Of a stretch of DNA of 64,000 bases, positions 3,900 through 58,861 are shown piece by piece. Under the pieces are notes generated by a model. The model was not told the origin of the DNA. It was given only the letters and a program-made list of their open reading frames with translations, and searched no databases. Origin of the DNA: Bactericera cockerelli (Eukaryota > Arthropoda > Insecta > Hemiptera > Triozidae); assembly GCA_024516035.1 (NCBI GenBank), contig CM044964.1, positions 25,390,867 through 25,454,866 of the forward strand. Reading direction: 5' to 3'. Numbering within the stretch: position 1 is the first letter of the stretch; each line of letters opens with the position of its first letter. A program made the translations under genes and the position numbers.

Positions 3900-4063
3900 G
3901 GCAGATACTAGGCTGACGGCGATCAGCAGTTATTTCTCAGCCAGTTGGTTCTGTGCAGAAAGCAGTTATATCTGTCGCCAGTTTGCCAGTTATTCCTCAG
4001 CCAGTTGGTTCTATGCAGAAAGCTGTTATATCTGTTGCCAATTTCATCTGTTCAACAGTCTCT
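3900..4063. repeat. Local direct repeats
   Basis: The phrase cagttat-ctcagccagttggttctgtgcagaaag-gttatatctgt occurs twice in tandem (about 3931-3972 and 3991-4033). Related pieces with 'gttatatctgttggcag' recur at 4447-4560 and 5678-5700. This looks like one decayed local repeat broken up by SINE insertions. Confidence 0.6.
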
Positions 4064-4262
4064 CCCGGTAGCTCAGTGGTAAAGGTGGCACTCTGCGAAT
4101 CCAGAGGTTCCAGAGGTTGTGGGTTCGAAACCCAGTCGGGCCATGACAAGTTATATCCTCCCATTTGGGATTTTTACCACATAATAATATGTCTTGGGCT
4201 TACTGTTGGAACAATGGGACTTTAATAGTCCTTATCGGGCAGTAAGATATTATTATTATTAT
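4064..4262 (+). mobile_element. SINE-B, tRNA-derived
   Basis: The head is cccggtagctcagtggtaaa, with B box gggttcgaaaccc. The body reads tgggatttttaccacataat and gtcttgggcttactg, and the tail is ATT repeats. Other copies: 5935-6138 (-), 11683-12115 (+, interrupted), 14299-14508 (-), 15952-16125 (+), 29540-29685 (+), 51776-51975 (-), 53030-53243 (+) and 58862-59090 (-). Confidence 0.88.
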
Positions 4263-4295
4263 TAATTAACAGTATAAGTTGTTATTTCTGATCAC

Positions 4296-5011: not shown

Positions 5012-5335
5012 TAAGTAGTCACCGTGGCCAATGACCCCGTCCCCGGTCGGAGCAGATTTTTCACACAGAAAATTCTGTTCCCTCCTTACATGTGAGGCTG
5101 GCATTTCCGGCCCTACCCAGGCTGGGTGAGGTTAATTTCGGTAGGTGGTACGATTCCCAGCGCATGGAAGGTAAAACCACCGTCCAATCCAGGACGTTAA
5201 ATCAAATAAAATCGTTGGCGTTATAGGAAATGCATCCGGCCGTAAAAAATGTGCCAAAACCAACCAAGCTCAACCATGAGGTTGAACAACGTCGACCCTG
5301 CTCAAGCGGGAAAAGACAGAGCAAAAGAAGAAGAT
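5012..5335 (+). mobile_element. SINE-C, tRNA-derived, long body
   Basis: The head is decayed (cgtggccaatgac, ccggtcggagcagattttt). The body has conserved blocks: gtgaggctggcatttccggc, ccaggctgggtgaggttaat, cgattcccagcg-atgga and caggacgttaaa. The 3' end is caaccatgaggttgaacaac, followed by cgtcgaccctgctcaagcgg and an AAGAAG tail. The full element is about 320 bp. Its central blocks recur in the 5S-derived SINE (see 57320-57570). Confidence 0.85.
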
Positions 5336-5934
5336 ATTATACAAAAATATGATTTTTTTTTGTTGGTTAAGTTCACGGAGAAATTACTCCATTTTTATGA
5401 TTAATATTAGGTATTGAAAAAAAAAAAAATCCTAAAAAACTTAAAAATACATAAATGAGCTTACTCAATAATAAAATTGAATGTGTCAATCAAATCGCTC
5501 TCTGTGCAGAGGAAGATGGCCCGCATCGCTAATGATGTTCCCAAGATGTTCTATAAACAAATAAACAAAAATTATCAATAATTCTGCGCTATCCACTAAA
5601 ATTGTGATATGATAACACAAAGAACACAGGTTTATTTTTACAAGCTGGCGTTTATTTCCAATGGTATAAACTATTAGAAACAGTTATATCTTTTGGCAGT
5701 CGATTGCCACCGGTACACCGGTGAAACAACTTCGCTCTTTTGACCGCTTGAACTTATGACCGCGATTCGATGCCTGGTAAGCTATTATTTTCCTGCTTTG
5801 TGAGTCTGACTGTTCGTTTTCCTGTGTGGTGAATTTTTAATTAATTGAACATTGTGTAGTTTCTATCAGGTTATTGTTTTTAGAGTCTATTTTAGTTGGT
5901 AGCAATGGGCCAGCGCTATAATTTTTATTAGTTA

Positions 5935-6138
5935 ATAATAATAATAATATCGTCTTATTTATACTGCCCGATTAGGAATATTAAAGTCCCATTATTGCAG
6001 CAGTAAGCCCAAGACATACTGTGGTAAAAATCCCAATTGGGAGGATAACATGTCATTTCCCAGCTGGGTTTCAAACCCACGACCTCTGGAGTCTTTGGAT
6101 TCACAGAGTGTCGCCTTTACCACTGAGTTACCGGGATA
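5935..6138 (-). mobile_element. SINE-B
   Basis: A full-length minus-strand copy, with its ATT tail at the left end and the head (acccagctgggaaatg region, B box) at the right. Confidence 0.85.
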
Positions 6139-6154
6139 GACTTAGCCTTTCTGT

Positions 6155-11440: not shown

Positions 11441-11585
11441 CGACCTCAGTAGCTTGATCGATAAGGCAGCGGACTTGTAACCTGGAGGTCGGTGGTTCAA
11501 GTCCCGGTTTCAGCGTAGATTTAGTAAAGCGAGTTTGAGTAGTTGTGATATCACGAAAGTGATAAACACAAATATGATAACGTTT
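11441..11585 (+). mobile_element. SINE-A
   Basis: A full-length, well-preserved copy (cgacctcagtagcttgatcg to acacaaatatgataac). Confidence 0.88.
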
Positions 11586-11682
11586 AAAACTTTAAATAAT
11601 AATAATTCCCTGAATTCGGACTTAGTGCGCTGTGATTGGCTGAAAATCCGACTTTTTTATCCAGATCTCTTATATCCAGATC

Positions 11683-11866
11683 ACTGAGCTACCGCAGTGG
11701 TAAAAGCGGCACTCTGTGAATCCAGAGGTCACGGGTTCGAAACTCAGCTGAGCCATGACAATTTAACCTCCTCTTTGGAATTTTTACCACATAATAATAT
11801 GTCTTGGGCTTACTGCTGGAATAATGGGACTTAATGGTGCTAATCGGGCATTATAAATAAGGCGAT
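11683..11866 (+). mobile_element. SINE-B, interrupted at its tail
   Basis: The head is at 11690 and B box at 11730. The body is complete up to tataaataaggcgat (11852-11866), where a SINE-C is inserted. The tail resumes at 12088-12115. Confidence 0.85.
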
Positions 11867-12087
11867 CTTCTTCTTCTTTTACTCTGTCTTATACCGCTTG
11901 AGCAGAGTCGACGTTTTTCAACCTCATGTCGTTCGGGTTGATTGGTTTAGCACATTTTTTACGGCTGGATGCCGTTAATAACGCCAACGACTCTATTTGA
12001 TTTTACATCCTGGATTAGGACGGGGGATTTTAGCCTCCATTCGCTGGGAATCGTACCAGCTACCAAATTGACCTCACCCAGCCTGGG
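11867..12087 (-). mobile_element. SINE-C nested in SINE-B, with target duplication
   Basis: This is a minus-strand, 5'-truncated SINE-C ending at cccagcctggg. It is flanked by an identical 15-base direct repeat, tataaataaggcgat, at 11852-11866 and 12088-12102. That is direct evidence of LINE-type target-primed insertion. It ends about 440 bases upstream of the inferred mlpt start site. Confidence 0.92.
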
Positions 12088-12115
12088 TATAAATAAGGCG
12101 ATATTATTATTAATT

Positions 12116-12495
12116 TCTTTTTCGGCTGCAATTTCTTTATCGAGCGCACCGTTTCCTGAGCCGTCCTGGGATTTCGATTTTCTCGCGTTAGTCACGTCTA
12201 AATTAAATACTTGCATCTCGTCGCATGGAGACCAGGAATCAAGGAGAAGTGAGGGGAATCGACCACGTGAGTCTCAGGTCCCGACGTTGGTGAACTTATC
12301 TCGAGTACACTTCACTTTATCAGTCAACCGCCGAGAACTCGGTCTATCCCTGAGCGCTCGCTTTCATTCATCCGATAACCACCTTTTTTTTTACCACTTA
12401 TTAATTTCCGATTTTTCTTCAGCACTCGAATTTTCACCGGACTTTTTTTTTTCTGTCGCACACATATATATATATTTTTTTTTTTTAACCTTTAA
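12116..12495 (+). promoter_or_regulatory. mlpt: mlpt proximal upstream region
   Basis: This is non-repetitive sequence, more GC-rich than its surroundings, between the nested SINEs and the TATA box. It includes a CACGTG E-box (12264-12269), several TTATC/GATAA GATA-type sites (one near 12297 and one at 12374) and pyrimidine-rich runs. Insect mlpt/pri genes are regulated in time and space, in flies partly by ecdysone. I see no clear ecdysone-response palindrome here. The regulatory role is inferred from position. Confidence 0.45.
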
Positions 12496-12532
12496 TATAA
12501 ATACGAGAAAATCAGTGTCCGTTCTTTCAGTC
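12496..12532 (+). promoter_or_regulatory. mlpt: TATA box and initiator of mlpt
   Basis: TATAAATA lies at 12496-12503 and an arthropod initiator, TCAGTC, at 12527-12532. This puts the likely +1 at A12529, 33 bases after the first T of the TATA box, close to canonical spacing. A competing TCAGTG at 12512 is too close to the TATA box. No ATG occurs between 12529 and the first small ORF. Confidence 0.7.
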
Positions 12533-12768
12533 GATTCCACCTTTGTCGAGCGACAGCATCAGAGAGCAGCATTTTTTTTTCGTTCTTTTTAAAATCAAAT
12601 TGCAGTTTTTATTTTTTAGTGTTTTTAGAAATTTCATCGCGCTTTTTAGTCTTTTTTTTCCGACGAAGACTTGAGAACTACGAACTTGCTTTTTCGACTT
12701 GTGTTTTTTATTTCGCCTTCAAGATAACTGTGCGTGAGTGAACTTTTTGTTTTAATTTAACTTTTTTT

Positions 12769-12828
12769 ATGATTTTCACCACCGGCTTTTCAATGTTTTA
12801 CGCCCTTGATCCGACCGGGATCTATTGA
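12769..12828 (+). CDS. mlpt: mlpt small ORF 1, LDPTGIY peptide
   Basis: From ATG 12769 the frame encodes MIFTTGFSMFYALDPTGIY (19 residues) and stops at TGA 12826. A second in-frame ATG at 12793 would give MFYALDPTGIY (11 residues), a more usual length for this family. The C-terminal LDPTG-x-Tyr followed directly by stop is the hallmark of mlpt/tal/pri peptides. In Drosophila and Tribolium these act through the ubiquitin ligase Ubr3 to cause partial proteasomal processing of Shavenbaby/Ovo, turning a repressor into an activator. Both ATGs have U at -3, a poor context, which would let ribosomes scan on to later ORFs. An in-frame TGA at 12739 bounds the ORF upstream. Family identity is near certain; the choice of start is open. 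Confidence 0.93.
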   Translation: MIFTTGFSMFYALDPTGIY

Positions 12829-12929
12829 AACGCGAGAGCTGGACTTTACTTTCGAGAAATCTAGTTCAAATTTCTTGTGAAAACTTGTGTTTTTTTTGTA
12901 AATTCGATTTCCCCACAAAAGGCTTTCCA

Positions 12930-12962
12930 ATGTACGTGCTGGATCCCACTGGTGTCTATTGA
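12930..12962 (+). CDS. mlpt: mlpt small ORF 2, LDPTGVY peptide
   Basis: Encodes MYVLDPTGVY, 10 residues, ending in TGA. It lies 101 bases after ORF 1, and 288 ATG-free bases follow it. The ATG context is weak (C at -3, T at +4). The six-residue core LDPTGV and terminal Tyr match the family consensus, and the N-terminal residues MYV are its only distinctive part. ORFs this short favour termination followed by re-initiation, which suits a scanning ribosome serving several ORFs. There is no signal peptide or membrane segment; the peptides act in the cytoplasm and nucleus in flies and move between cells by an unclear route. Confidence 0.95.
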   Translation: MYVLDPTGVY

Positions 12963-13250
12963 GACGGCAAAAACTCCCAATTTTATCGTGAGAGACCCTG
13001 AATTTTATTTCGATTCAATAACTAGCCGGGTTCATTTTCTGATAAAAACGAGCAACCAATTATTGCTTATCACTTTCCTCATTACGTGTCCAGTAGAATC
13101 AGCTGACTGTTTCAACTAACGATAAGACTTCTCCACTCTGCCTATACCTTTTCATTCGAGATTCAAGATAGTCAATTCCGAAAACCTGTCGATTTAAACC
13201 TTCTCACTGATATTTAATTACAAAACTTTTTAATATCTAATCGATTCAAA

Positions 13251-13280
13251 ATGGGTCTAGATCCTACCGGTGTTTACTGA
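13251..13280 (+). CDS. mlpt: mlpt small ORF 3, MGLDPTGVY
   Basis: A nine-residue ORF ending in TGA. The context, tcaaaATGG, is close to the insect optimum (A at -3, G at +4). The peptide is identical to ORF 4, but five of the seven core codons are written differently or shared in a mixed way (cta/tta, cct/ccg, acc/act), while flanking bases ttcaaaATGGG are the same. This points to an old tandem duplication kept by selection on the protein. It sits 55 bases before ORF 4. Confidence 0.96.
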   Translation: MGLDPTGVY

Positions 13281-13335
13281 CTCGAAGAGCTTTTAGAGAT
13301 TCGTTTGAAATTTAGTTGAACCAAAATCTTTCAAA

Positions 13336-13365
13336 ATGGGTTTAGATCCGACTGGTGTTTACTGA
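13336..13365 (+). CDS. mlpt: mlpt small ORF 4, MGLDPTGVY
   Basis: A nine-residue ORF ending in TGA, with strong start context ttcaaaATGG. It encodes the same peptide as ORF 3 with synonymous differences, so the nucleotide sequence has drifted while the protein has not. That is good evidence of purifying selection from a single genome. An 81-base ATG-free spacer separates it from ORF 5. Confidence 0.96.
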   Translation: MGLDPTGVY

Positions 13366-13446
13366 ACAGTCATTCCAAGAGTCTTTCCAAGCTGATCTTT
13401 GTCGACTCGCTATCAGCAGACTTTATTAGAAATTGTTGAAATCAAA

Positions 13447-13485
13447 ATGACGCCCAAGAGTTTGGACCCCACTGGTCAATACTGA
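13447..13485 (+). CDS. mlpt: mlpt small ORF 5, MTPKSLDPTGQY
   Basis: Encodes 12 residues ending LDPTGQY, then TGA. The C-terminus LDPTGQY is the version found in the Drosophila type-A peptides. Start context atcaaaATGA has A at -3. The basic N-terminal extension TPKS sets it apart from the other four. It is the last LDPTG ORF, followed by 240 ATG-free bases before the longer ORF. Confidence 0.96.
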   Translation: MTPKSLDPTGQY

Positions 13486-13614
13486 GGCACAAAGGGCGCA
13501 ACAGACAATTTTCCTAACACTTCCACGGACATTCAATCCCAGAAGCGTTTTTACGAGACAATTTCCCCTTAAATTCTCTCAAATTGCGGACATTTCCTCA
13601 ATTGACTCCAATTC

Positions 13615-13705
13615 TTCAAGTTGACTCAAACATCCCAACTCAACTTGACTCAAACATCCCAACTCAAGTCGACTCGAAATTTCAACTTGACTCAAACGCC
13701 ACCAC
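13615..13705 (+). repeat. mlpt: Degenerate 24-base leader repeat
   Basis: Phrases built on ttgactcaaacatcccaact are repeated about three times just before the 58-codon ORF. The stretch is rich in C, A and U, has no G runs and no ATG, so it should be unstructured and easy to scan. A frame without any ATG runs through it into the 58-codon ORF. Confidence 0.7.
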
Positions 13706-13725
13706 AAAAAAAAACCCAAGAAAAC

Positions 13726-13902
13726 ATGAACTGCGGACTCTCACTTGTCCGACATCCTCAGCACGAAGATAGCAGCTACTGCCTTCGCAAGAACCGACGT
13801 CTGCCGAATCAAACCCGAAGCAATTCCCTGCTGACTCAGATTTCCCGAACATTCACGAATCAGCACCTGTGTCGAATAGTCAGTCTGCAGCGACTTTCAT
13901 AA
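13726..13902 (+). CDS. Downstream 58-residue ORF of the mlpt transcript
   Basis: ATG 13726 (context aaaacATGA, A at -3) opens a 58-codon frame ending in TAA. It begins MNCGLSLVRHPQHEDSSYCL, continues RKNRRLPNQTRSNSLL and ends IVSLQRLS. It is basic (many Arg), has three Cys, no LDPTG motif, and no signal peptide or membrane helix. No other ATG in any frame lies inside it, and none lies in the 240 bases before it, so scanning ribosomes would meet it next. Other insects carry a non-LDPTG ORF on this gene (ORF B in flies, pep4 in beetles), and a hemipteran-specific peptide of about 80 residues has been reported. Whether this ORF corresponds to any of them cannot be told without alignment. Confidence 0.6.
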   Translation: MNCGLSLVRHPQHEDSSYCLRKNRRLPNQTRSNSLLTQISRTFTNQHLCRIVSLQRLS

Positions 13903-14122
13903 AGAGAACACTGTTGTTTATTAGATAAAGAAAAAGAAGTTTTATTTTAGTCGTTTAAATTTGAATTCAATTGAAGAGATTTCATTTCTCACCGCCCCCA
14001 CTTGCATTCGGCGCCCCCTAGCGTCATTAAGCCCCGCCTCCAAGCTGAGAAGTCCCGCCTTCCACTCCCTCAGCTGTCTCTTCACTGCCACGCCCCGCCC
14101 CCCTCCTCTTAGTCAAATAGTC

Positions 14123-14182
14123 ATGCCTGTCCCCGCTCTGCCGTCCGGACGCCGCATCCACGTTGAAATTCGAAAGCACACG
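14123..14182 (+). CDS. Possible spliced small ORF, first exon part
   Basis: ATG 14123 (G at -3) opens 20 codons, MPVPALPSGRRIHVEIRKHT, that run exactly to the 5' splice site in phase 0. It is the first ATG after the 58-codon ORF, again following 220 ATG-free bases. Joined to the candidate acceptor at 41714 the frame continues RWKPDSFTGSSEVDSF and stops after 49 codons. Joined to 29924 it stops after 37. If the intron is retained it continues into GTAAGTCCT. The product is not recognised. The absence of competing ATGs supports translation, but splicing partners are inferred. Confidence 0.4.
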
Positions 14183-14188
14183 GTAAGT
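14183..14188 (+). other. mlpt: 5' splice site after the mlpt small ORFs
   Basis: CACACG/GTAAGT is a full match to the U1 consensus from -1 to +6. The composition changes from GC-rich exon-like to AT-rich, repeat-bearing intron-like at this point. Confidence 0.65.
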
Positions 14189-14298
14189 CCTCAGACAATC
14201 CTTTAGATATAAGATAATAATAATAATATAAGATAGAATAATATGTCAAACAATTGCACAACAGGTATGTCCAAGAATCGTACAGGTTGTTGATGAAT

Positions 14299-14508
14299 AA
14301 TAATAATAACATCGCCTTATTTATACTGCCCGATTAGGACTATTAAGTCCCATTATTCCACAGCAGTAAGCCCAAGACGTATTATTATGTGGTAAAAATC
14401 CCAAAATGGGAGGATAACTTGTATTGCCCCGGCTGGGTTTCGAACCCGCGACCTCTGGAATCTCTGGATTCACAGAGTGTCGCCTTTACCACTGAGCTAC
14501 AGGGACAG
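14299..14508 (-). mobile_element. SINE-B
   Basis: A full-length minus copy, with its ATT tail at the left. Confidence 0.87.
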
Positions 14509-14609
14509 ACAGAGCTAAGATGAACAATATTGTAAATTTCCATGTACTCAAATCAATCATAATTGTCTCGTACACAATCGTGATTCTGTTTACGAAATTA
14601 TTGCTGGTC

Positions 14610-14690
14610 TTGGGACTCAAACCACCGACCTCCACATCAGGTTACGATTCTGGCGCCTTATTGAGCTGCAGAGGTCAGTCCACAGAACCA
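14610..14690 (-). mobile_element. Diverged SINE-A head
   Basis: Contains gggactcaaaccaccgacct and gcgccttattgagctgcaga in reverse orientation. The tail is missing. Confidence 0.5.
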
Positions 14691-14699
14691 CTAGTTTTG

Positions 14700-15520
14700 G
14701 CATGCCTTTGTGATTAATAAGACTATAATACAGTAGAACCAGCTAGTAAGATACCTCGGTATGAATTTTCTAATGCTTCCAATCCCAGTAGTAAATTTCA
14801 GGTCATTATTTTTTATGATCTATAATTGCCCAAGTCCAGACAACAACCTTCTTGAAACCATCCGAAAATTCTATCTACTTCCTAAATTCTAGTTTGTACA
14901 AGCCAAACCAAGAAAAGACCACTTATTATCTATTATACAATCCATTGTTCGACATTTTGAAACCACCGTCTCAAAATAACCAATTAAAGAGGCTAATTAC
15001 CTATTTCATTTTATTTTAATATAAATGGAAACGGAAGAATTTTGAAGTTATTTCGGGATTTCCAGAAAACAACTTTTTAGAACATGAATAGGTCAGTCAT
15101 CCCGACAATTTGTGGCATTTGACCTAAAATAATTTGAAAGAAAATCAAATTTAAATCATCTATTTTGACACCATTCTTGAAACCTATATTTTTGACACAC
15201 TATTTTTATAACCTAGTGTTTATTTTTGACACCATTATTTGTGACACAAAAGGTGACCGAGGTACCTGTTTTGTTTGATTGGCAATACTGTGTACTCTTC
15301 TCAGAAGTGCATTTTGGTTTACACCTTACAAAAATAGCATAACTTATGTCATAATAGTGACCTGTGACCTATTATACTGGTGTCATGCACCTTTTCCTTA
15401 CCATTATATAACTTATAATTAGCTATCCGACACAATAGGTGTTTATATTTGTCCCTGAATGACCTTTTCGGAACACACACGCACTACTAGTAATAATAAA
15501 ATTATAGTCAGCTGGTCAGC
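14700..15520. other. Unique AT-rich intronic or intergenic DNA
   Basis: No recognisable gene or repeat family. The local phrase 'ttttgacaccatt(ctt/att)' recurs three times at 15168-15240, a degenerate tandem of about 40 bases. Confidence 0.5.
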
Positions 15521-15521
15521 T

Positions 15522-15855
15522 CTCTTCTTCTTTTACTCTGTCTTATTCCGCTTGAGCAGGGTCGACGTTGTTCAACCTCATGGTTGAGGTTGGTTGGTTC
15601 TGGCACATTTTTTTACGGCAGGATGCCCTTCCTAACACCGACGATTCTATTAGGTTTTAACGTCCCGATCAGGACGGGGGTTTTACCCTCCAGTCGCTGA
15701 GTATCGTACCAGCTACCCACATTAACCTCACCCAGCCTGGGTAGGGCCGGAAATGCCAGCCTCACGTGTTTGGAGGGAACAGAATTTTCTTCGAAAACTT
15801 TTCTCCAATCGGGAATCGAACTCAGGATCTCAGGGCTACGGGCAGTAGTCACAAG
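15522..15855 (-). mobile_element. SINE-C
   Basis: A full-length minus copy. The tRNA-like head is at the right (gggaatcgaactcaggatct B box, acgggcagtagtcacaa), and the CTTCTTCTTTT tail is at the left. Confidence 0.87.
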
Positions 15856-16206: not shown

Positions 16207-16515
16207 CTAGGGCACTATAAACAGGGAGGAGACTAGCAGTCTTGCTGGGGGACTCTAAACAGAGAGGAGACCAGAAGTCTTGCTGGAGGACTATAAACAG
16301 GGAAGAGACCAGCAGTCTGGCTGGGTGACTATAAACAGGGAGGAAACTAGCAGTCTGGCTGGGGGACTATAAACAGGGTGTAGACCAACATTGGCTTGGT
16401 TCGGGGGGCCCTTGTCAATTATTAGCATCCTTGTATCTAGTGGTAGAAGTGCAGATTCATTCCTCCATTGTCTGGCTACCATCGTTCATGATGACGCTAC
16501 CCTATGATGATGATG
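16207..16515 (+). mobile_element. Element K with 39-bp tandem head
   Basis: Four to five 39-bp units built on ggactataaacagggaggag and accagcagtctggctggg occupy 16207-16390. A single-copy body follows (aacattggcttggttc, ctagtggtagaagtgc, gtctggctaccatcgttcat) with a GATGAT tail. Copies at 18140-18385 and 52240-52432 are in the opposite orientation and hold different numbers of units. Fragments lie at 44640-44705 and 53640-53690. Confidence 0.75.
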
Positions 16516-18139: not shown

Positions 18140-18385
18140 ATTTTTGTCATCATCATATTATCATAGGGTGGCGTAATCGTGAACGATGGTAGCCAGACAG
18201 TGGACGAATGACTCAGCACTTCTACCACTGTCTTTACAAGGAGGCTAATAGTTGACAAGGCCTCCCAGAACCAAGCCAATGCTGGTCAACTCCCTGTTTA
18301 TAGTCCTCCAGCCAGACTGCTAGTCTACTCCCTGTTTATAGTCCCCCAGGCAGACTGCTGGTCTACTCCCTGTTTATAGTCCCCA
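18140..18385 (-). mobile_element. Element K
   Basis: A minus copy: the body at 18160-18285 (aacgatggtagccagacagt) is followed by two to three 39-bp units (ctccctgtttatagtccccc). Confidence 0.75.
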
Positions 18386-18689
18386 GCCAGACAAATTTTC
18401 CAGGCGATAAATGTCAAACCTCAAAGAAATATGTCAAACCTCATACGGCACTGTGAATGAAACTCGGATAGAGAGACACAACACACGGGCACTGCAATAT
18501 GATGTATGTAATGCCGTGATCAACAATGAGTGTACCCAAGGGTTGATGACCTGAGGTACCTAATGTACTTCAAGTACGTGGCCGCGGAACAAGCCAGAGG
18601 TCCTGGGTTCAAGACCCGACCGCGCACGAGAATTTTCGCTATTTTTTTTTTCGTGTGTCGTGATAAAAAAAAATAATACTTTCTTTTCT

Positions 18690-45851: not shown

Positions 45852-47235
45852 TATTCTATTCTATTCTATTCTTTGTTTTGTCTTAGGGTTCTGCAGATCC
45901 TTAGCACCAGCCATGCCTGCTATTAGGTGGAGTAATAGTATCTTGAGAATAAGAATATCTTCCATGGTTAGGATAGAATTGCTTTGTTTCCGCTGGATCG
46001 GGATGGCCTTTAGCCTTTGCTATTATCTCCGGAGAAGTACTGTTATAGCTTCAAAGGTTGAACAATATTGCTTCATTCTCTAAATCGCTAATTTACCGCT
46101 ATTCTGTAGATAATTTTTTTTGTATAGAATTTATGTATATTTAGATTAATTTTTTTTAGAAAATTTGTTACAATGGTTCGCACAATAATATACAAAACAA
46201 ATAATTACTTAAACACAGAGAGAAATAAAAATAATAACAATACTGACTAAAATTGTATCTAAAATTCCAGGTTCGATATTTCCAAATATTTCCATTTTAT
46301 TCTAAGGTCAACTTCACCACATTCGTAAAAGAAAAATGCGTTTCGGTACTCTTGAAGATAAACAATGGACTTAACCTATAAAAGAACTGGAAGCAAGCAT
46401 TTTCTACTTCCATTTTGGTTAACCCATCGGAAGAAGGAAGAGAAAAAATTTCCCCTTCCAAAAGAAAAATGACTTGCTTCCAGTTTAGTTAATTTTATTC
46501 CAGTTGCATCCACTTTGGTTAGAAAGAAAAATACGGCTTGTGTACCTACGTAAATAAAACATGGTCGAATATGTTTCAGAATAATAATAATAAGTTAGTG
46601 TATTTCTTTGTGGTATTATATCACAATTTTAGTGGGTAGCGCAGAATTATTTGGACTTTACCATATCTTTCATATCCCAATATCTTATTTTTGCCTATAA
46701 TTCCGCCACTGGTCGCTGCTAACATAGCAGCTACTCATTTTTCCTCACGAGGTATGAGTGGACCCCGAACATCCAAGTACAGAACAGAAAAATCCTGTCC
46801 CGCTGGGGATCGAACCCAGGTCACCGTACGTGCAATGCCTAGCGCGCTAACTCACTCAGCAACGGTGACTACTTGTTTCATAATAATAACAGACTATTCA
46901 AATTGCTGTTTTTTGCGTCTTTATTTTATGAATGAAAAGTATCTGGTTCAAGATCATTGGGCTAAGTTACTACGTGAATTCTACCCTCACACTATGGGCA
47001 AGAATAACACAGGAGATGGTAATGGTGAGATAAAAAATGAGAAAAAATTTGCTCATTGTGACGTTGTATATTCATTCAGGAGTCGGTCAAGGACTATAAA
47101 CAAGAATTTTGTGGATTCTGACTCACTTGACGTATTTATAATAAATATAATTATGATAAATACAATAAACAAATATAATTATTCTTCTTCTTTTACTCTA
47201 TCTTATCCCGCTCAAGCAGGGTCGACGTTGTTTAA
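45852..47235 (+). repeat. Inverted duplicate, right copy
   Basis: Reverse complement of 1-1385. It begins in the TTCTATTCTATT run and ends inside a SINE-C that continues to 47510. It contains a minus SINE-D at 46610-46870. The 255-codon open frame across 46691-47458 crosses this SINE-D and the SINE-C, so it is not a real protein. Confidence 0.9.
46610..46870 (-). mobile_element. SINE-D
   Basis: Minus copy inside the inverted duplicate, orthologous to 365-635. Confidence 0.85.
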
Positions 47236-47510
47236 CCTCATGGTTGAGATTGGTTGGTTTTGGCACATTTTTTACGGCTGGATGCATTTCCTAACGCCAA
47301 CGGTTCTATTTGATTTAACGTCCTGGACTAGGACGGGGGTTTCAACCTCCATTCGCCGGAAATCGTACCATCTACCCACATTAACCTCACCCAGCCTGGG
47401 TAGGGCCGGAAATGTCAGTCTCACATCTAATACGGAGGGAACAGAATTTTCTGTGTGAAAAGTCTGCTCCGACCGGGGATCGAACTCAGGATCTCTGGAT
47501 TGAATAAATA
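47180..47510 (-). mobile_element. SINE-C
   Basis: Full-length minus copy with head at the right (gaccggggatcgaactcagg). Confidence 0.87.
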
Positions 47511-47584: not shown

Positions 47585-47650
47585 ATTCACACACTGAAGT
47601 TAAGCAATGTCCAGCGAGGCTATGATTTGAATGAGGCGATATTATTATTC
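47585..47650 (+). mobile_element. 5S-rRNA-like fragment with SINE-B tail
   Basis: cactgaagttaagcaatgtc, then cagcgaggc, matches the internal promoter region of 5S rRNA. It passes straight into the 'gaggcgatattattatt' end typical of SINE-B. Confidence 0.5.
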
Positions 47651-47659
47651 TTCTGTGTT

Positions 47660-48990
47660 TTTGATGTTCTTGTAGGTATTGTTATTGTTGGTGACGGTGA
47701 GTGTTTTGTTGTTGATGTATTGTTGTTGTTGGTGACTGTGTGTGTTTTTGTTGTATTGTTGTTGTTGGTGACGGTGAGTGTTTTGTTGTTGATGTATTGT
47801 TGTTGTTGGTGACTGTGTGTGTTTTTGTTGTATTGTTGTTGTTGGTGACGGTGAGTGTTTTGTTGTTGATGTATTGTTGTTGTTGGTATCGGTGAGTGTT
47901 TTGTTGTTGATGTATTGTTGTTGTTGGTGACGGTGAGTGTTTTGTTGTTGATGTATTGTTGTTGTTGGTGACTGTGTGTGTTTTTGTTGTATTGTTGTTG
48001 TTGGTGACGGTGTGTGTTTTTGTTGTATTGTTGTTGTTGTGGACGGTGTGTGTTTTTGTTGTATTGTTGTTGTTGGTGACGGTGTGTGTTTTTGTTGTAT
48101 TGTTGTTGTTGGTGACGGTGAGTGTTTTGTTGTTGATGTATTGTTGTTGTTGGTGACTGTGTGTGTTTTTGTTGTATTGTTGTTGTTGGTGACGGTGTGT
48201 GTTTTTGTTGTATTGTTGTTGTTGGTGACTGTGTGTGTTTGTTGTTGATGTATTGTTGTTGTTGGTGACTGGTGTGTGTTTTTGTTGTATTGTTGTTGTT
48301 GGTGACGGTGAGTGTTTTGTTGTTGATGTATTGTTGTTGTTGGTACGGTGGTGTTTTGTTGTTGATGTATTGTTGTTGTTGGTGACTGTGTGTTTGTTTT
48401 GTTGTATTGTTGTTGTTGGTGACTGTGTGTGTTTTTGTTGTATTGTTGTGTTGGTGACGTGGTGTTGTTGTTTTGTGTTGGTTGTGAGTGTTTTTGTTGT
48501 ATGTTGTTGTTGGTAGGTTGTTTTGTTGTATGTGTGTGGTGACGTGTGTGTGTTTTTGTTGTATTGTGTTGGTGAGTGTGTGTTGTTGTATGTTGTGGTA
48601 GTGTTTTTGTTGTATTGTTGTTGTTTGGTGTTTTGTTGTTGTTGTTGTGTGGTATGGTGTGTTTTGTTGAGTATTGTTGTTGTTGGTGTAGTGGGTGAGT
48701 GTTTTTGTTGTATGTTGTGTTGTGTGTGTGTTTGTGTGTGTGTGTTTGTTGTGTTGGTGTTGTGTGTGTGTTGTTGTTGTGTGTTGTGTTGGAGGGTGGG
48801 TAGTGTGGTTGTGGTGTGTTGTGTTATTGTTTGTTGTTGGTGATCGGTGAGTGTTTTGTTGTTGATGTATTGTTGTTGTTGGTGATGTGTGTGTTTTTGG
48901 GTGTGGTTTGTTGTTGTTGGTGACGGTGAGTGTTTTGTTGTTGATGTATTGTTGTTGTTGGTATCGGTGTGTGTTGTTGTTGTTGTTGTT
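47660..48990. repeat. G/T-rich minisatellite, about 48-bp unit
   Basis: Units are built on ttgttgttggtgacggtgag, tgttttgttgttgatg and tattg, repeated more than 20 times. The plus strand has few C and few A. Units between 48,440 and 48,830 are irregular, with missing bases, before the regular pattern returns. All open frames here (poly-V/L/C or poly-Q/T/N) are artefacts. Confidence 0.95.
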
Positions 48991-49127
48991 GTTGACGTTG
49001 TTGTGTCGGAACCAGGTCAGTCAGGCTGTGGGTCAGGGCGCACCGTCGGTTAGTCATGATTAGGATGCAGATCACGTCTCCTGCCACGGCTCGTATGGGA
49101 CACAGCCTGCGGGGATATATACAGTTT

Positions 49128-49627
49128 ATACAGGGTGTCCAAGATTTATTTTTTTAGAAAATTTCAGAGTTAACTCCAGGAGACATTCTAAGCCTAAAAT
49201 AATCTTGGGTTATTTTTCCGAAAATGAAAAAAAATCACAGAAAATGATTTCACCTTAAATACAACTTGTTAAAACCTAACATTTTGTACTTTTTTTTTTT
49301 TTTGAGGGAAAAATTTGCTAAGTCAAACACAGGCGTACATTGTTCTAGAGCCCGTGAAAGGGTTTTATACCCTCTAAAAAACCCCCCAGGTTTACGTGAT
49401 TTATTTCCTTGCGCCCCGGAACCGATTAACATAACTTCGGGGGACTGTACCTATTATAACTGTACCTATTATAGCATTCAAAATTGAGTTATTATTTTGA
49501 TTATATCATCTTCGTTCGACGGCATTTTTCGAAAAAATGATCTGAGATTTTTTTAGTCTTAGACTGTCCACTAGAATTGATTCTGAAAATTTCTAAAAAA
49601 AAAACTTTGACAAATGGACACCTTGTA
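49128..49627. mobile_element. DNA-transposon-like element with ACAGGGTGTCC ends
   Basis: Left end atacagggtgtccaagattt. The right end, aaatggacaccttgtat, is its imperfect complement (14-bp terminal repeat with one mismatch). The interior, about 470 bp, has no transposase. Confidence 0.6.
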
Positions 49628-49807
49628 TCTACCTACATAATATTATAAATTGGTTCGGTGCGTGAAAACCCATCAACTATCGTTAAAAAATGAGAATCGG
49701 GGAACATGACAGTATTATATTATTGTGTGGTGTGAATTACCATAGATGTTCACATGCACCACTATGATCTAATAAAATATAGATAAATTATATTATTGTA
49801 TATCATA

Positions 49808-49950
49808 CCGACCTCAGTAGCTGGCTCGATAAGGTGGCAGACTCGTAACCTGGAGGTCGGTGGTTCGAGTCCAAGTTTGGTATGAATTTAGCAGCGTGTG
49901 TATGAGTGATGGTGACATCACAAAAGTGTTTAACACAAATATGATATTTA
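49808..49950 (+). mobile_element. SINE-A
   Basis: Full length, with changes in the body (ggtgacatcacaaaagtgtt). Confidence 0.82.
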
Positions 49951-50134
49951 AAAAATTTAACACAAATATAATATGATACCTTTCTTCTTTAAGACTCCGG
50001 TATTGCTTTAGAATCAAATGAGAATGAATGGCACTGTTTGAAACATCGCTTTGCAACAAATTGGTATTCAAAATTCGAGAAGAAATGTTGCGATCAGTGA
50101 AATAGCGGATTTAACATTTACAAATAAGTTTAAC

Positions 50135-50385
50135 AAATAACGGGTTCGAACCCCCGCGCAGACAAAAAAAAAATATTAAAAAATTGGTTATAGTTTTTTG
50201 TAAGGGATACCTTCCGGTGCGCTCGTGTTGACCCAGCACCTAAATGGGAAGTATTGTGCCATCAGAGGGGAGGCACACTACGGGATGGGCAGGCTACAAC
50301 ACAGACCACAAGCGTCTACAGTAGCTTCTGTTTCATGGCTACGAAATAAAAAAGGCTGTGAAACACTCATCTTTAAAGAAAATAA
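50135..50385 (+). mobile_element. SINE-F, 5' truncated
   Basis: Starts at aataacgggttcgaaccccc and carries the full body, with a small deletion before gccatcagaggggaggca. Confidence 0.82.
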
Positions 50386-50749
50386 TAATAATAAAAAAAA
50401 AAACAGTGCTTATTTATTCTGTATTTTTTTACAAACAGAAATCCACTTTCATTGGTCAAGTAGTTAATACCTAATAAGTGTTTCATTAATTGCATCTATT
50501 AATAGATGTACGGTTCAACCAGGTAATTTTTCTAAGATCTCTGTTAGCTGTTAATTGATGTGGTCACTCGCGGAAGTGTCCATCATATGGAGTCTTCGTG
50601 TCTGTTCAGCTATCAATATTGGAGCTCTGCAAGATGCTGGATATTAGATAGCTGGAGTTGGCTGGAGAAAGTTGCCTAAGTCAGTGGCGAAGTGACTGTA
50701 TAGGGTTGGATGCGATGAAATTTCCATTATTGAAACTTTTCAAGGAGAT

Positions 50750-50945
50750 GGAAATGCCAGCGTCGATGGCGCTTTGAATGCACCGGTTCTCGTAGGACCA
50801 CCGAAGTTAAGCAACGACCAGCGAGGTGAGGACTTCGTGATTCTGGCATTGCGGCCCATCACAGGTTAGGTGAGATTAATGTGGGTAGCAGATTTGTGAG
50901 TTTCGTGCAAATGGAGAGTAACACTCCCTGATACTGAAAAAGTTG
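50750..50945 (+). mobile_element. 5S-rRNA-derived SINE (family H)
   Basis: The head closely follows 5S rRNA: gccagcgtcgatggcgcttt, gaatgcaccggttctcgt, accgaagttaagcaacg and accagcgaggtgaggacttc. It is followed by the SINE body (ggttaggtgagattaatgtg, ggtagcagatttgtgagttt). A 5S head with a downstream body is the SINE3 type. It is not a 5S gene: the 3' half of 5S is missing. Confidence 0.8.
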
Positions 50946-51279
50946 AGAAAAAGAACCTCTAGATGTAACTCCGGTTCGCTGGGGATCATTGAAGAAGAGG
51001 AACCTTGTGTGGGGAAAACCCAAACAGAAGATCGTTTGCATGTATGCCAAAATGTGAGTGCATTCGAGATGACCTTAAAACTTGTTATAATGTACAATGT
51101 AGCTGCCATGCAAGTGGCGAAATACTGGCAGACCTGGCAGTATAAAATTTGATTGGTGGTTACCGAAGTCGGCAAGTAAGTCTGCTGGAGAAAGTTGACT
51201 GACCACTTGACCAGTGGTGGTGTTCTCACTGAAGGGTAGGGTAGGGTAGGGTGACTAGGTGACAGAGATTGCCATTTTA

Positions 51280-51375
51280 CGAGCTAGCCAGCGTCAATGG
51301 CACACCAAACACTCCATTTTTCGTTCTGGCACTGAAGTTTAGGTTTTGGATGGGTGACAATTTACAAGAAACAAA
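51280..51375 (+). mobile_element. 5S-derived SINE fragment
   Basis: gccagcgtcaatggcacacc, then cactgaagtttaggttttgg and atgggtgac, a decayed 5S head. Confidence 0.55.
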
Positions 51376-51700
51376 GTTGAAATTATTAAACAAAACTTGA
51401 TCAAGGGCGGTGCTAATGCGTACGACATTCTCTTCCATTCAAATTCGAACACTTGTGCTATTGTCTATTCCCGGTCCCACTCAAGCTGAATGATTGGGAA
51501 GGGTTAAGTGGAAGAGATTGCCATAGGCAATAACCCCGCCCTTTAGTTAGGACATAATTATGTTTTCATATATTTTCTATTATTTTTCATTTTTATTGTA
51601 TATATTGTTTTTTTTTTTTTTTTTCATTTTTTCACTGTTAAAATTATTATTAGTATATACATAATGTCCTTTTGTATCTAATAAAGAGTTTAATAATAAT
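51375..51700. mobile_element. LINE tail L2 (minus) next to LINE tail L (plus)
   Basis: 51375-51440 is a short minus L2 piece (aaacttgatcaagggcggtg). 51490-51700 is a plus L tail from gttaagtggaagagattgcc to taataaagagtttaataata. Confidence 0.7.
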
Positions 51701-51775
51701 GATGATGGTAATTTGAGTAGCTGGTTTGTGAGTTTCCAGCGAATTGAAACATCATGGTATGAGAATGCAGTTAAT

Positions 51776-51975
51776 AATATCGCACTATTTATACTGCCTG
51801 CTTAGGACTATTAAGTCGCAGTATTCCAGCAGTAAGCCCAAGACATATTATTATGTAGTAAAAATCCCAAATGGGAGGATAACTTGTCATGTCCCGGCTG
51901 GGTTTCGAACCCGCGACCTCTGGAATCTCTCGATTCACAGAGTGCCGCCTTCACCACTGAGCTACCGGGTCAGAC
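51776..51975 (-). mobile_element. SINE-B
   Basis: Full-length minus copy with intact B box (ctgggtttcgaacccgcgac). Confidence 0.87.
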
Positions 51976-52239
51976 CGAGTGAAATGTTGAAAAGCTAAAT
52001 GTGCAAAACCCACAGAAAATACTTTAGGATTGCTTCAAGTAGCTAGATATTAGCTGGAGAAAGTTTCCTGAACAGTGGCCATTTACTCGATGGAGGTGCT
52101 CTTCAAGTAATATTAGCTAGAGCTGTAGTCTACTGGAGAAAGTTGCGTGGGTCATTGAACTAGCGGTGTTCTCACTAAGAATGGGAAGAAGTAAATAAAG
52201 ACGAAATCAAAGGTGTGACGGTGCAGATCCATAAAAAAC

Positions 52240-52432
52240 ATCATCATCATAGGGTGGGATCATCGTAAACGATGGTAGCCAGACAGTGGGGGAATGACTT
52301 AGCACTTCTACCACTGTCTTTACAAGGAGGCTAATAATTAACAAGGACCCCCTAGAACCAAGCCAATGCTGGTCTACTCCCTGTTTATAGTCCCTCAGCA
52401 AGGCTGCTGATCTACTCCCTGTTTAAAGTCCC
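52240..52432 (-). mobile_element. Element K, two tandem units
   Basis: Body (gtaaacgatggtagccagac), then two 39-bp units. Confidence 0.75.
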
Positions 52433-52509
52433 CAGAAATAAAACATTAAAACAAAATAATAATTTATAGGTATCTAACGATTAATAATACGTAATAGGCT
52501 TTTTTATTT

Positions 52510-52725
52510 TATTTTTTTACTTTCAACTGCATAGTCATATCACAAGAGGCTTTTACCCTCCATATTTGCTCGAAACTCACAAACCTGCTACTCAAATTAA
52601 CCTCACTCAGCCTGTGGCGCCGAGAATAGCCAGCATTACGGGGTTTGAATTTGAATGGTCCCCCATTCAAGTCCTAGCCTCGGTGGACGTTTCTCAACTG
52701 CAGTGACTGAATGAGAACTGGGATA
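52510..52725 (-). mobile_element. 5S-derived SINE (family H)
   Basis: Shared body at the left (ttaacctcactcagcctgtg). A 5S-like head at the right reads cattcaagtcctagcctcgg and tctcaactgcagtgactga in reverse. It abuts SINE-F. Confidence 0.65.
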
Positions 52726-52729
52726 TCTG

Positions 52730-52985
52730 CCATGCGGAAGGTCACGGGTTTGATCCCCTGTGCCGACAAAAATTTCTATTCTTAAATTGGTTACAATATA
52801 GTTTGTAAGGGATACCTTCCGGTGCGCTCGTGTTGACCCAGCACCTAAATGGGAAGTATTCTGTAACTTCTCGCCCATCAGAGGGGGGCATACTACGGAA
52901 TGGGCAAGCTACATCACGGACCAAAAGCGTCTATAGTAGGTCCTGTTTCTGGCTACGAAATAAAAAAGGCTGTGAAGAAACACTA
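52730..52985 (+). mobile_element. SINE-F
   Basis: ctgccatgcggaaggtcacg through gcacctaaatgggaagtatt to acactaatctttt. Confidence 0.82.
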
Positions 52986-53029
52986 ATCTTTTTTTTTAAT
53001 CAATAGACAGCATCAATGCGGATTATCGG

Positions 53030-53243
53030 TCTGTCCCGGTAGCTCAGTGGTAAAGGTGGAACTCTGTGAATCCAGAGATTCCAGAGGTCGTGGGTTCGAA
53101 ACCCAGCCTTGACATGACATGTTATCCTCCCATTTGGGATTTTTACCACTTAATAATATGTCTTGGGCTTACTGCTGGAATAACGGGACTTCAATAGTCT
53201 TAATCGGGCAGTATAAATAAGGCGATATTATTATTATTATTAT
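53030..53243 (+). mobile_element. SINE-B
   Basis: Full-length plus copy: ctgtcccggtagctcagtgg to the ggcgatattattattattat tail. Confidence 0.88.
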
Positions 53244-53639
53244 GCGGGACTTGCCGGCAGGGTATGGTGTGTTCGTCCCTTTTGAAGGGCACCAATTCTG
53301 TCGGCTCACCCGCTACAAACCTCCCCGTTCTTCTTTCTATTTCCTGGAGGTAATTCTTCAGGAGGTTTTCTGTATACATATTAGTTCAGGACATGCAGGA
53401 GGTTTTCTGTATATGTATTAGTTTGGTTGGATGAAGAAATCCCACGCGACGACACTGCAACCATCAGAGATGCAAAAATCACAACCCGACCACACCGGTC
53501 TCTTGATGGATCCGCGGACTAACCCATTGAATCAGGATAGACTCGGCAATTTCTGTCGCACTAGACGCGACTACGGGCCGAATTATAAAACAGGATTAGA
53601 TTAAATCTTCTTTATTTTTTATTTTTTAATACAAAATAA

Positions 53640-53835
53640 GTCTGGCTGGGGGACTATATAAACAGGGAGGAGACCAGCAGTCTGGCTGATGGGAGACTAG
53701 CTTGATCGATAAGGTAGCGGACTTGGAACCTGGAGGTCGGTGGTTCAAGTCCCGGTTTAAGCGTTGATTTAGTAATGCGAGTTTGAGTAGTTGTGATATC
53801 ACGAAAGTGGTTAACACAAATATGATAACTTAACT
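53640..53835 (+). mobile_element. Element K fragment followed by SINE-A
   Basis: 53640-53690 is one 39-bp unit and part of another. 53691-53835 is a SINE-A (agcttgatcgataaggtagc to acacaaatatgataac). Confidence 0.8.
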
Positions 53836-53962
53836 TAAAAAGGTTGGAAAAAGAAGCCTCTCTCTCTCTCTTCAATTTCATTTTGCATGCTTTGATCTCA
53901 AATCAATGAATTAATATTTTTTTTATATTCTAATTAGGAGCTTTAACTCTGTGTTGCAACAG

Positions 53963-54063
53963 GTCGTTCGGAAGCAATGTTACCTACTGGTCCTGCCTCT
54001 CATACTCTTTTAGCTATACTTTGCCAGCCATCGACACAGATTCAAATGGACACAATCCCTTAA
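53963..54063 (+). CDS. Candidate terminal exon, version 1
   Basis: The acceptor ctgtgttgcaacag precedes 53963; its pyrimidine tract is weak. In phase 1, continuing the frame of the 41714 exon, it reads G, then RSEAMLPTGPASHTLLAILC and QPSTQIQMDTIP, and stops at TAA 54061-54063. The following 200 bases are non-repetitive and could be 3' UTR, but I see no AATAAA. The product is not recognised. Confidence 0.25.
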
Positions 54064-54399
54064 CTCGGGCTATAATGCGCCATATCTTCAGCTGTACATC
54101 CAAACCCTCCATCCTGGACTACCCTGGACTGTGGACGAATCCTATATCAGTTAGAAGTCTTCTTTAAGCTGGAAGCAGAGAAGTTGCCGTCAGCGGAGGA
54201 GTTCATCCGATGGTCATTTTACCTGAGAAGGGATCAAAATAATCCATCACTTGGGCCATTTCAAAAAAATTGATTTAGGTATTTTTTCATTCAGTGTGAT
54301 GGATCACAAGTTAGTACCTTATTTAAATTTGTAATTTTTCTAGATTTGGTCTTTCAGTTTTAGATCAATTGATCTAAAATATGCCCATCTGTTATGCAG

Positions 54400-54473
54400 C
54401 CGCCGCGCGCCGTCAGCGTTCAAAACAACAAGAGGAACGGTCGTTTCGCGGAGAACGCCTTAGAGAAAAATGA
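54400..54473 (+). CDS. Candidate terminal exon, version 2
   Basis: The acceptor catctgttatgcag precedes a GC-rich segment. In phase 1 it reads AARRQRSKQQEERSFRGERL, then REK and a TGA at 54471-54473, a very basic tail. Another frame is open for longer (to 54621) but runs into the 84-bp minisatellite. Support is compositional and phase-based only. Confidence 0.25.
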
Positions 54474-54505
54474 CAGTGCTATAGTGGTGATCCATGATCC
54501 GGACG

Positions 54506-54865
54506 TTCCAGAATGTACTAGAAAGTCTGGAGCCCGATTGTTATCACAGACTCCTTATCGTGGAATGAACCAGACAGTTTGGAGCCCACCAGTGGAATGT
54601 ACTAGAAGGTCTGGAGTCTGATTGTTATTACAGACTCCTTATCGTGGAATGAACCAGACAGTTTGGAGCCCACCAGTGGAATGTACTAGAAGGTCTGGAG
54701 TCTGATTGTTATCACAGACTCCTTATCGTAGAATGAACCAGACAGTTTGGAGCCCACCAGTGGAATGTACTAGAAGGTCTGGAGTCTGATTGTTATCACA
54801 GACTCCTTATCGTAGAATGAACCAGACAGTTTGGAGCCCGCCAATGGAATGTACTAGAAGGTACA
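54506..54865. repeat. 84-bp minisatellite, about 4.3 units
   Basis: Units are built on tggaatgtactagaaggtct, tgattgttatcacagactcc and gaaccagacagtttggagcc. The period is a multiple of 3 (28 codons). The first unit is open in one frame, and later units have a TGA caused by gagcccga changing to gagtctga. Confidence 0.94.
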
Positions 54866-55011
54866 GACCGGGTTAAGCCACTCAGGACGCCGAGATTGTA
54901 CTTTCACTTTGCTCAGATATCTCTGGCCCTGTTTTGGTCTCTCAGCTGCTTCCTCTCTACTTTTCCCGAGATAGAGAGCGAGGATTTTCAGCCAGAGAGA
55001 TGCTGGTTCAA

Positions 55012-55335
55012 TAAACCAGCCTCCGTGGCGTAACGGTTGTGACTACTACCCGTAGTCCAGAGATGCCGAGTTCGATCCCCGGTTGGAGCAGACTTTTCGA
55101 AAAAAATTCTGTTTCATCCAAACACGTGAGGCTGGCATTTCCGGCACTACCCATCAGGCTGGGTGAGGTTAATGTGGGTAGCTGCTACGATTCCCAGCGA
55201 ATGGAAGGTAACACCCCTGATCAAGACGTTAAAACCAAATAAAGTTGTTGGCGTTAGGAAGGCCATCCAGCCATAGAAAAAGTGCTCCACCTAACCAACC
55301 TCAACCATGAGGTTGAACATTGCCGACCCCAATAG
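55012..55335 (+). mobile_element. SINE-C
   Basis: Full-length copy with an intact tRNA-like head (cctccgtggcgtaacggttg, gagttcgatccccgg). Ends at gaggttgaacattgccgacc. Confidence 0.88.
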
Positions 55336-55589
55336 AAACATGAGCTAATATGGGATAAAGGCAAGGGAGATATATGCTGGTTTGAACCTCGCCAGAAGGA
55401 CGTTTTTGAACAGGAACCAGATGACGAGGTTTGAACCAGTTTTCCTGAAGAGTTGAGAGAAACAAATGTGTGCATAATGGGACTACCTGTTTTGTATTGA
55501 AAGTCCAAGGACCAAATTAAAACAAATAATTAAATTTAAGATAAGCCAGACCCTTCCTGAAATTTTCAAGTTTCAACAAATCACGGCGG

Positions 55590-55838
55590 ACGTATCTTAT
55601 CTTACCTAATTTTAATCCTGTTTCATAGCTCGTATCTTATCTTACCTAATTTTAATCCTGTTTCATAGCTCGTATCTTATCTTACCTAATTTTAATCCTA
55701 TTTCATAGCTCGTATCCTATCTTACCTAATTTTAATCCTGTTTCATAGCTCGTATCTTATCTTACCTAATTTTAATCCTGTTTCATAGCTCGTATCTTAT
55801 CTTACCTAATTTTAATCCTGTTTCATAGCTAATTCTAC
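55590..55838. repeat. 40-bp minisatellite, about 6 units
   Basis: Units are built on gtatcttatcttacctaatt and ttaatcctgtttcatagctc, nearly identical. Confidence 0.95.
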
Positions 55839-55894
55839 CTTAAGCCTTAAAGTTCTTAAGCTAATTCTTGTTGTGTAGTCGCACCGATGGCACC

Positions 55895-56075
55895 TTTAAC
55901 TCACCAATTATTGTCAGATCACTGAAGTCAAGCAACGTCCAGCGAGTTTAGAACTTGGATGGATTTTTCCTCATTATTTTGAGTAAGTGCACAGATCTGA
56001 GGGTTAGGTGGTAGACAAAGATTTGAGTATTAACCTCGCCTTGCGGATACCTCCCACGAAAGAGTATTATTACTT
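55895..56075 (+). mobile_element. Chimera of 5S-like head and SINE-E tail
   Basis: cagatcactgaagtcaagca, then acgtccagcgag and aacttggatgga, follow 5S rRNA. At 55966 it switches directly to the SINE-E tail (tttcctcattattttgag, ctgagggttaggtggtagac). Confidence 0.65.
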
Positions 56076-56235
56076 TTTCTTATCTGACTGACTGATTGAC
56101 ATAACTTTTTTCGATCAAGACTTGCGCCATTTTTCAGTACTTACATCCAGCTATCCCTTATCTCTTCCAACCAACTCAAATTTTCTTTTGATGGTCTACA
56201 ATTCTCTATTTTAAGTTTAAGTGATGGACTGATTT

Positions 56236-56402
56236 ATACAATGAAACCTGGCTATAAGAGAAACCCTTACCTGGATATAAGAGAACAATTTCCAGGTCAA
56301 ATTAATCTCTATAAGAGAAAATAACATCTTCGTAAGAAAAACATGGATGTATAGAAACAAATTCTGGTCTCTTAATTTCTCTTATGCCCAGGTTTGACTA
56401 TA
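56236..56402. mobile_element. Tc1/pogo-like MITE with TA-type ends
   Basis: Left end tacaatgaaacctggctata, followed by agagaaa. The right end, tctcttatgcccaggtttga, then ctata, is its imperfect complement. The element is about 165 bp, with further internal copies of the 'ataagaga' motif. No coding capacity. Confidence 0.72.
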
Positions 56403-56649
56403 ATTTCCTTTTTTTTCGTCATGTCTTTGGTCTACAACTTCTCACTGGTCTGAATTGAGATTTTGCCTAACTGCTGGACTGATCGATATTTCTTTTTTCG
56501 AGCAAGACTTGTGCTGTTCCAGTGCTTTCATCCAGCACGGACTATTGCATTCTTGGGGAATTACTCACATTTACGTTCAACTTGTAAACAAAATTTCTTT
56601 TTACGCTAATAACATAGGAGAGAACCGGGGATATCTCTTGTAAATGCGT

Positions 56650-56840
56650 CATTTTTTTTCATCATCATAGTCATCTTCATAATCCTTCTTACTTTCCTTC
56701 TTATTATTATCATTATCATTGGTCGGTTGGTCCCATTTCAGCCAAAGTCTTTTTTTTTTCATCATAGTCATCTTCATAATCCTTCTTACTTTCCTTCTTA
56801 TTATTATCAATATTACTGGTCGGTTGGTCTCATTTCAGGC
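56650..56840. repeat. Tandem duplication of about 93 bp
   Basis: Two copies of tttttcatcatagtcatctt, cataatccttcttactttcc and ggtcggttggtc, differing at few sites. Confidence 0.85.
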
Positions 56841-58308: not shown

Positions 58309-58427
58309 TCAATTAAGCGCGCGGCGCAGCGCTTCGTCTGGTAGGCAGAGGACTCTAGGTTCAAGTACCGGTAAGGAAAGGAAGAAGAAGAAAAAGCATA
58401 ATGAATGCTTTTTACAAGAATCCACCG

Positions 58428-58855: not shown

Positions 58856-58861
58856 TCATCA

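Follow-up and report, generated by a model that had tools for sequence, protein, structure and literature searches.

The peptides of the mille-pattes/tarsal-less/polished rice (mlpt/tal/pri) family are reported to be 10–32 amino acids (aa) long (PMC6428570). The pri gene is reported to occur throughout the arthropods (PMC11475943), and the number of mlpt peptides is reported to differ between species (PMC6124123). In Drosophila melanogaster, one tal/pri mRNA carries several tiny open reading frames (ORFs) of the LDPTG-x-Y type, encoding 11–32 aa and translated through re-initiation (PMC11475943, PMC9622821). Here we consider a locus with ORFs of the same type, located in a stretch of 64,000 nucleotides (nt) of the Bactericera cockerelli assembly (C10:25,390,867–25,454,866; called the window below, with positions counted from its first letter). 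The assembly comprises 565,017,811 bases in 1,032 contigs. Five ORFs that end in LDPTG-x-Y-TGA are found in tandem on the plus strand of the window within 717 nt (12,769–13,485), and on the basis of the sequence we estimate the probability that this is the mlpt/tal/pri gene of the genome to be about 95%.

The arrangement agrees with the layout described for the family, that is, peptides of ca 10–32 aa encoded in tandem on one strand within ca 1.5 kb (PMC6428570, PMC11475943), since the five ORFs here encode 9–12 aa, or 19 aa in the case of a long ORF1, within the 717 nt. While four ORFs are described for Drosophila tal/pri, the fourth of them with two motifs (PMC3136413), the present locus has five ORFs with one motif each, in which x is I, V or Q. 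Five mlpt peptides are also given for a single record of Nasonia vitripennis millepattes (MH181829; PMC6428570), which is a likeness by count alone. The Ca-tal gene of Clogmia albipunctata (MG783326) is reported to encode four LDPTGXY-type peptides of 10–29 aa, spaced by 111–334 nt (PMC6124123), compared to spacers of 55–288 nt here. Hemipteran mlpt, finally, is described as having LDPTG-type ORFs, as is the case here, and in addition a smHemiptera ORF of ca 80 aa (PMC7606980, PMC11475943). No ATG-opened ORF of this size lies wholly inside 12,529–14,182 of the plus strand, where the longest is 58 aa, but an ORF that is split by an intron could still be present.

Considering the five Nasonia peptides, the numbers that vary with the species and the presence across arthropods, the locus is a further member of a known family, the gene, peptides and mechanism of which have already been published. 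It is likely to be an orthologue of mlpt/tal/pri and, by analogy, likely to work as the family does.

The five LDPTG reading frames

ORF1 (MIFTTGFSMFYALDPTGIY, 19 aa) is located at 12,769–12,828 of the plus strand and is followed on the same strand by ORF2 (MYVLDPTGVY, 10 aa) at 12,930–12,962, ORF3 and ORF4 (both MGLDPTGVY, 9 aa) at 13,251–13,280 and 13,336–13,365, respectively, and ORF5 (MTPKSLDPTGQY, 12 aa) at 13,447–13,485. The tails are LDPTGIY in ORF1, LDPTGVY in ORFs 2–4 and LDPTGQY in ORF5, and the stop codon is always TGA. A preliminary description of the sequence had named these five ORFs and quoted their tails correctly, and all of them are intact; a sixth candidate ORF (13,726–13,902, see below) had been overlooked. 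The length range of 9–19 codons given there holds if ORF1 is read from its first ATG. Translation may instead start at the second in-frame ATG (12,793), in which case the product would be the 11-aa peptide MFYALDPTGIY.

The motif is very rare. With the composition of the window and both strands taken into account, 8.5e-5 occurrences of LDPTGxY-stop are expected by chance per 64 kb, and none was seen in 20 dinucleotide-shuffled windows. Scanning the whole assembly with the corresponding DNA pattern gave five matches on the forward strand and none on the reverse one, all five of them in this locus, while a control with the reversed pattern gave one match in the 565-Mb assembly. The region 3' of the ORFs (13,486–14,182) is also single, as its only match in the assembly is itself, in a search that leaves out simple repeats and words of very high frequency.

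We now turn to the differences between the five copies. At least nine nucleotide changes are needed in the codons for L, D, P, T, G, Y and the stop, and all nine are silent, compared to 24% expected for random changes; the ORFs were chosen by their motif, which means that this silence is partly built in and the contrast inflated. A DNA repeat search is independent of this choice, since it is blind to the reading frame. Applied to 11,500–15,500, it returned a five-copy family at ≥67% identity that consists of exactly the five ORFs and spans only a core of 24 nt, and no decayed LDPTG copy was found in this interval.

ORF3 and ORF4 are identical in 27 of 30 nt, and all three differences are silent. 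The two lie within a 36-nt direct repeat (92%). Since their downstream flanks share some similarity (p 0.002, 500 shuffles) while the upstream ones do not (p 0.15), ORF4 is likely a local tandem duplicate of ORF3. This pair had previously been put forward as direct evidence of selection on the peptide. The identity of the peptides and the silence of the differences stand, but taken alone the pair is modest evidence (0.238^3, or ca 0.013), and the nine silent changes over the five copies constitute a stronger argument. With the caveat about the choice by motif, the pattern points to purifying selection that acts on the peptide and not on the DNA.

Predicted transcript bounds and ATG layout

A core promoter is predicted from a TATA-box-like TATAAATA (12,496–12,503, plus strand), a consensus match only, and from an initiator-like TCAGTC (12,527–12,532, plus strand) that would place the start of transcription at 12,529. 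The initiator A is 33 nt downstream of the TATA-like element. On both strands together the window has three pairs of this kind, and the two besides this one fall in AT-rich stretches. A sigma-70 promoter scan of the sequence is not meaningful for a eukaryote. At the other end, a splice-donor-like GTAAGT (14,183–14,188, plus strand) marks a predicted exon end, and neither AATAAA nor ATTAAA is found between 13,486 and 14,982, which together make a further exon downstream likely. The transcript would thus begin at 12,529 and be spliced at the donor at 14,183. The bounds of 12,529–14,182 that had been suggested earlier agree with the TATA/initiator-like pair and with the GTAAGT, as far as sequence matches go. 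No part of the presumed exon other than ORF3 and ORF4 is repeated within the window. The ATG at 14,123 opens 20 codons (14,123–14,182, plus strand) that reach the donor-like site in phase 0, and this frame could run on into a downstream exon.

It is important to point out how the ATG triplets are distributed. Between 12,400 and 13,485 there are six, and all six open LDPTG frames. The predicted 5' leader (12,529–12,768, plus strand; 240 nt) has none, and after ORF5 the next ones are at 13,726, where the 58-aa ORF6 opens, and at 14,123. Taken together as far as 14,122, the leader and the spacers amount to 1,225 nt without a single ATG, while 8.7 would be expected from their own dinucleotides, and zero was reached in only 2 of 5,000 first-order Markov simulations. 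When only the part before ORF5 is considered (765 nt), 6.0 are expected and none occurred in 0.22% of the simulations. When the leader/spacer mask was moved along the window on both strands, it was free of ATG at 32 of 121,426 placements, and the 20 of them that were listed are all at 12,500–12,519, on the locus itself. The shorter mask, up to ORF5, was ATG-free at 669 of 124,130 placements.

The start contexts change along the presumed transcript. The base at −3 is T for both in-frame ATGs of ORF1 and C for ORF2, which are weak contexts, and A in ORFs 3–6, which is a strong one; ORF3 and ORF4 have in addition a G at +4. In Drosophila, removal of the stop codon of tal ORF 1A is reported to abolish the translation of 2A, that is, the latter depends on re-initiation (PMC9622821). 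Since re-initiation needs spacers that are free of ATG, the leader and spacers found here fit re-initiating ribosomes. With no intervening ATG, the layout appears suited to serial re-initiation, and the ATG-free spacers combined with the weak-to-strong order of the start contexts would favour translation of the ORFs in series by leaky scanning and re-initiation.

One can go further and speculate that the locus is a micro-operon, in which the leader and spacers have been selected to be free of ATG and the starts become stronger from 5' to 3' to offset a falling re-initiation. The five peptides and the 58-aa sixth one, possibly a second active product, would then come from a single mRNA in balanced amounts. 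We regard this proposal as tentative and, taken as a whole, rather unlikely.

The sixth reading frame

ORF6 (13,726–13,902, plus strand; 58 aa) is a candidate for the C-terminal peptide of the family. In Clogmia Ca-tal, this peptide is described as having 39 aa with a GREETSSCRRRR-type motif and as lying 348 nt further 3' (PMC6124123), while ORF6 is longer and begins 240 nt after ORF5. Its segment PQHEDSSYCLRKNRR (QHEDSSYC(L)RKNR) matches the published family consensus weakly, with a score of 23.

The odds are about even that the gene is mlpt but that ORF6 is a chance frame, in which case the true C-terminal peptide would be encoded in a downstream exon or be absent. What speaks for chance, and at the same time against the family reading of ORF6, is the weakness of the motif: when the ORF6 peptide was shuffled, 58 of 2,000 versions scored at least 23, and over all window positions the match is listed eighth and tied fifth, behind unrelated matches with scores of 24–27. 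Further, no candidate homologue was found among ca 5.8 billion proteins in a word-based search of limited reach, nor was there a Pfam family or a PDB match at E ≤ 1. It can also be noted that in a tagging assay the 49-aa ORF tal-B of Drosophila appears as a negative control, and its result is given as 'None' (PMC4359375). On the other hand, ORF6 is opened by the sole ATG between 13,486 and 14,122, in a context with A at −3, and among the 164 ATG-opened readings of 40–80 aa in the window it is the only one to reach the score, that is, none of the other 163 does. Its position 3' of the LDPTG ORFs is moreover where the C-terminal peptide of the family is described to sit (PMC6124123).

Three other matches of the NREETSS type were considered for the C-terminal peptide and rejected. 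Those at 16,220 and 16,334 (score 20 each) sit in a minisatellite and outside the presumed first exon, and the one at 53,661 (score 27) is also outside this exon. Together, they show how high chance scores can go.

Candidate partner genes, probable identity and surroundings of the locus

In Drosophila, Pri peptides are reported to bind Ubr3, which leads to the ubiquitination of Shavenbaby (Svb), and the limited degradation that follows makes Svb an activator (PMC10857433, PMC6428570). Carried over from Drosophila and other insects to this locus, the mechanism would be that the LDPTG peptides bind Ubr3 and trigger the processing of Shavenbaby. Candidates for both partners were found in the same assembly. 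The Ovo/Shavenbaby zinc-finger query, which was not copied from a database record, gave 276 matches, with 150 of 1,984 candidates scored. An ovo/svb-type zinc-finger gene appears to be present at C13:12,144,028–12,147,840 on the minus strand, where three matches have identities of 72, 92 and 98% (E 5e-27 to 5e-23) and are likely exons. The next-ranked match has 44% identity at E 2e-16, and the other listed zinc fingers reach at most 54% over shorter stretches.

The C-terminal PRT6_C domain of UBR ligases has eight matches, of two kinds, in the assembly. Those at C6:5,103,755–5,106,965 are nearest to UBR2 (two stretches, with E 3.6e-41 and 1.3e-32); against UBR1 the same stretches have E 1.3e-34 and 9.8e-22, and by these scores the gene is UBR1/2-like. 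The divergent kind is represented on C820, plus two weak matches on C1, and one C820 stretch has E 2.1e-5 to UBR2 and 4.1e-5 to UBR1. Insects carry both UBR1/2 and Ubr3, and this, together with the divergence from UBR1/2, makes it likely that the C820 gene is Ubr3, although the name is inferred.

The assignment to the family made in the preliminary description is hence supported by the motif, the tandem on one strand, the silent divergence, the ATG-free spacers, the single locus, and the presence of the ovo/svb-type gene and of two UBR-type genes. A number of points weigh against it. At 9 aa, ORF3 and ORF4 are just below the family range of 10–32 aa given in PMC6428570, and Drosophila tal/pri is described as having a single exon (PMC3136413), whereas the donor-like site here suggests an intron. 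When ORFs and spacers are not separated, the scarcity of ATG is milder, with six or fewer in 78 of 1,000 shuffles (12,529–13,485) and in 2.7% of equal windows. Scans of viral and prokaryotic contigs with the exact LDPTG DNA pattern returned no match, and thus no mlpt locus of a second species for alignment. To these should be added the choice of the ORFs by motif, the weak motif of ORF6, and the identity of the C820 gene, which is deduced from its divergence from UBR1/2 and from the presence of both types in insects.

Very improbable is the alternative that the genome has its functional mlpt at some other place and that the locus seen here is a pseudogene or decayed copy of it. Eukaryotic genomes do hold relics of genes, and an assembly in 1,032 contigs could miss sequence. 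However, all five matches in the assembly are located here and all five ORFs are intact, the divergence between them is silent, there is no decayed copy alongside, and the leader and spacers are free of ATG. Even less credible is the view that LDPTG is no more than the translation of a tandem repeat or of a chance array, with no function as a peptide: the 36-nt direct repeat at ORF3/ORF4 and the similarity downstream of it point that way, but the distances from one start to the next vary (134, 318, 85 and 120 nt), the repeat family is limited to the 24-nt core with only silent differences in it, and ca 1e-4 would be expected by chance.

Interspersed repeats are found on both sides of the presumed exon (11,690–12,112 and 14,299–14,499). 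Copies of one short interspersed repeat flank the gene in inverted orientation at 11,690–11,878 and 14,299–14,499, and further copies include those at 4,058–4,269, 5,934–6,141, 51,772–51,979, 53,026–53,241 and 58,869–59,090. Read by eye, this repeat has what we take to be tRNA-like promoter boxes. A second repeat family (around 11,868–12,089) adjoins the upstream copy and has copies near 5,114–5,334, 15,523–15,743 and 47,182–47,402. Minisatellite units around TATAAACAGGGAGGAGAC and AGTCTGGCTGGG can be seen by eye at 16,215–16,400 and 18,280–18,390, in opposite orientation. Two matches to 5S rRNA (57,450–57,571, minus strand, 65 bits; 50,756–50,848, plus strand, 39.9 bits) are either genes or 5S-derived repeats. 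A long CAA/CAC-rich low-complexity tract at 47,620–49,020 is likely non-coding, although the open frames on its minus strand reach 466 aa.

In a six-frame comparison of 15,001–45,000 and 49,001–64,000 with Pfam, none of the 18 frame stretches had a family at E ≤ 0.01, so the gene seems to be located in a gene-poor stretch. A match to ERbeta_N (E 0.03, under the curated cut-off), the lone one from ten chosen stretches at E ≤ 0.1, was taken as chance. Drosophila pri has distant enhancers, and a gene-poor stretch would leave room for enhancers of this kind.

With the locus read as mlpt/tal/pri, a part in development would be expected, be it in segmentation, the legs or the epidermis. The family is one of the founding cases in which very short ORFs were found to encode functional peptides, and it is a key switch in development. 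The complete five-peptide locus provides this genome with an annotation of a kind that would probably escape standard gene finders. It also constitutes a case for comparing ATG depletion and the strength of start contexts across species, and thereby for testing how many products can come from one eukaryotic mRNA.

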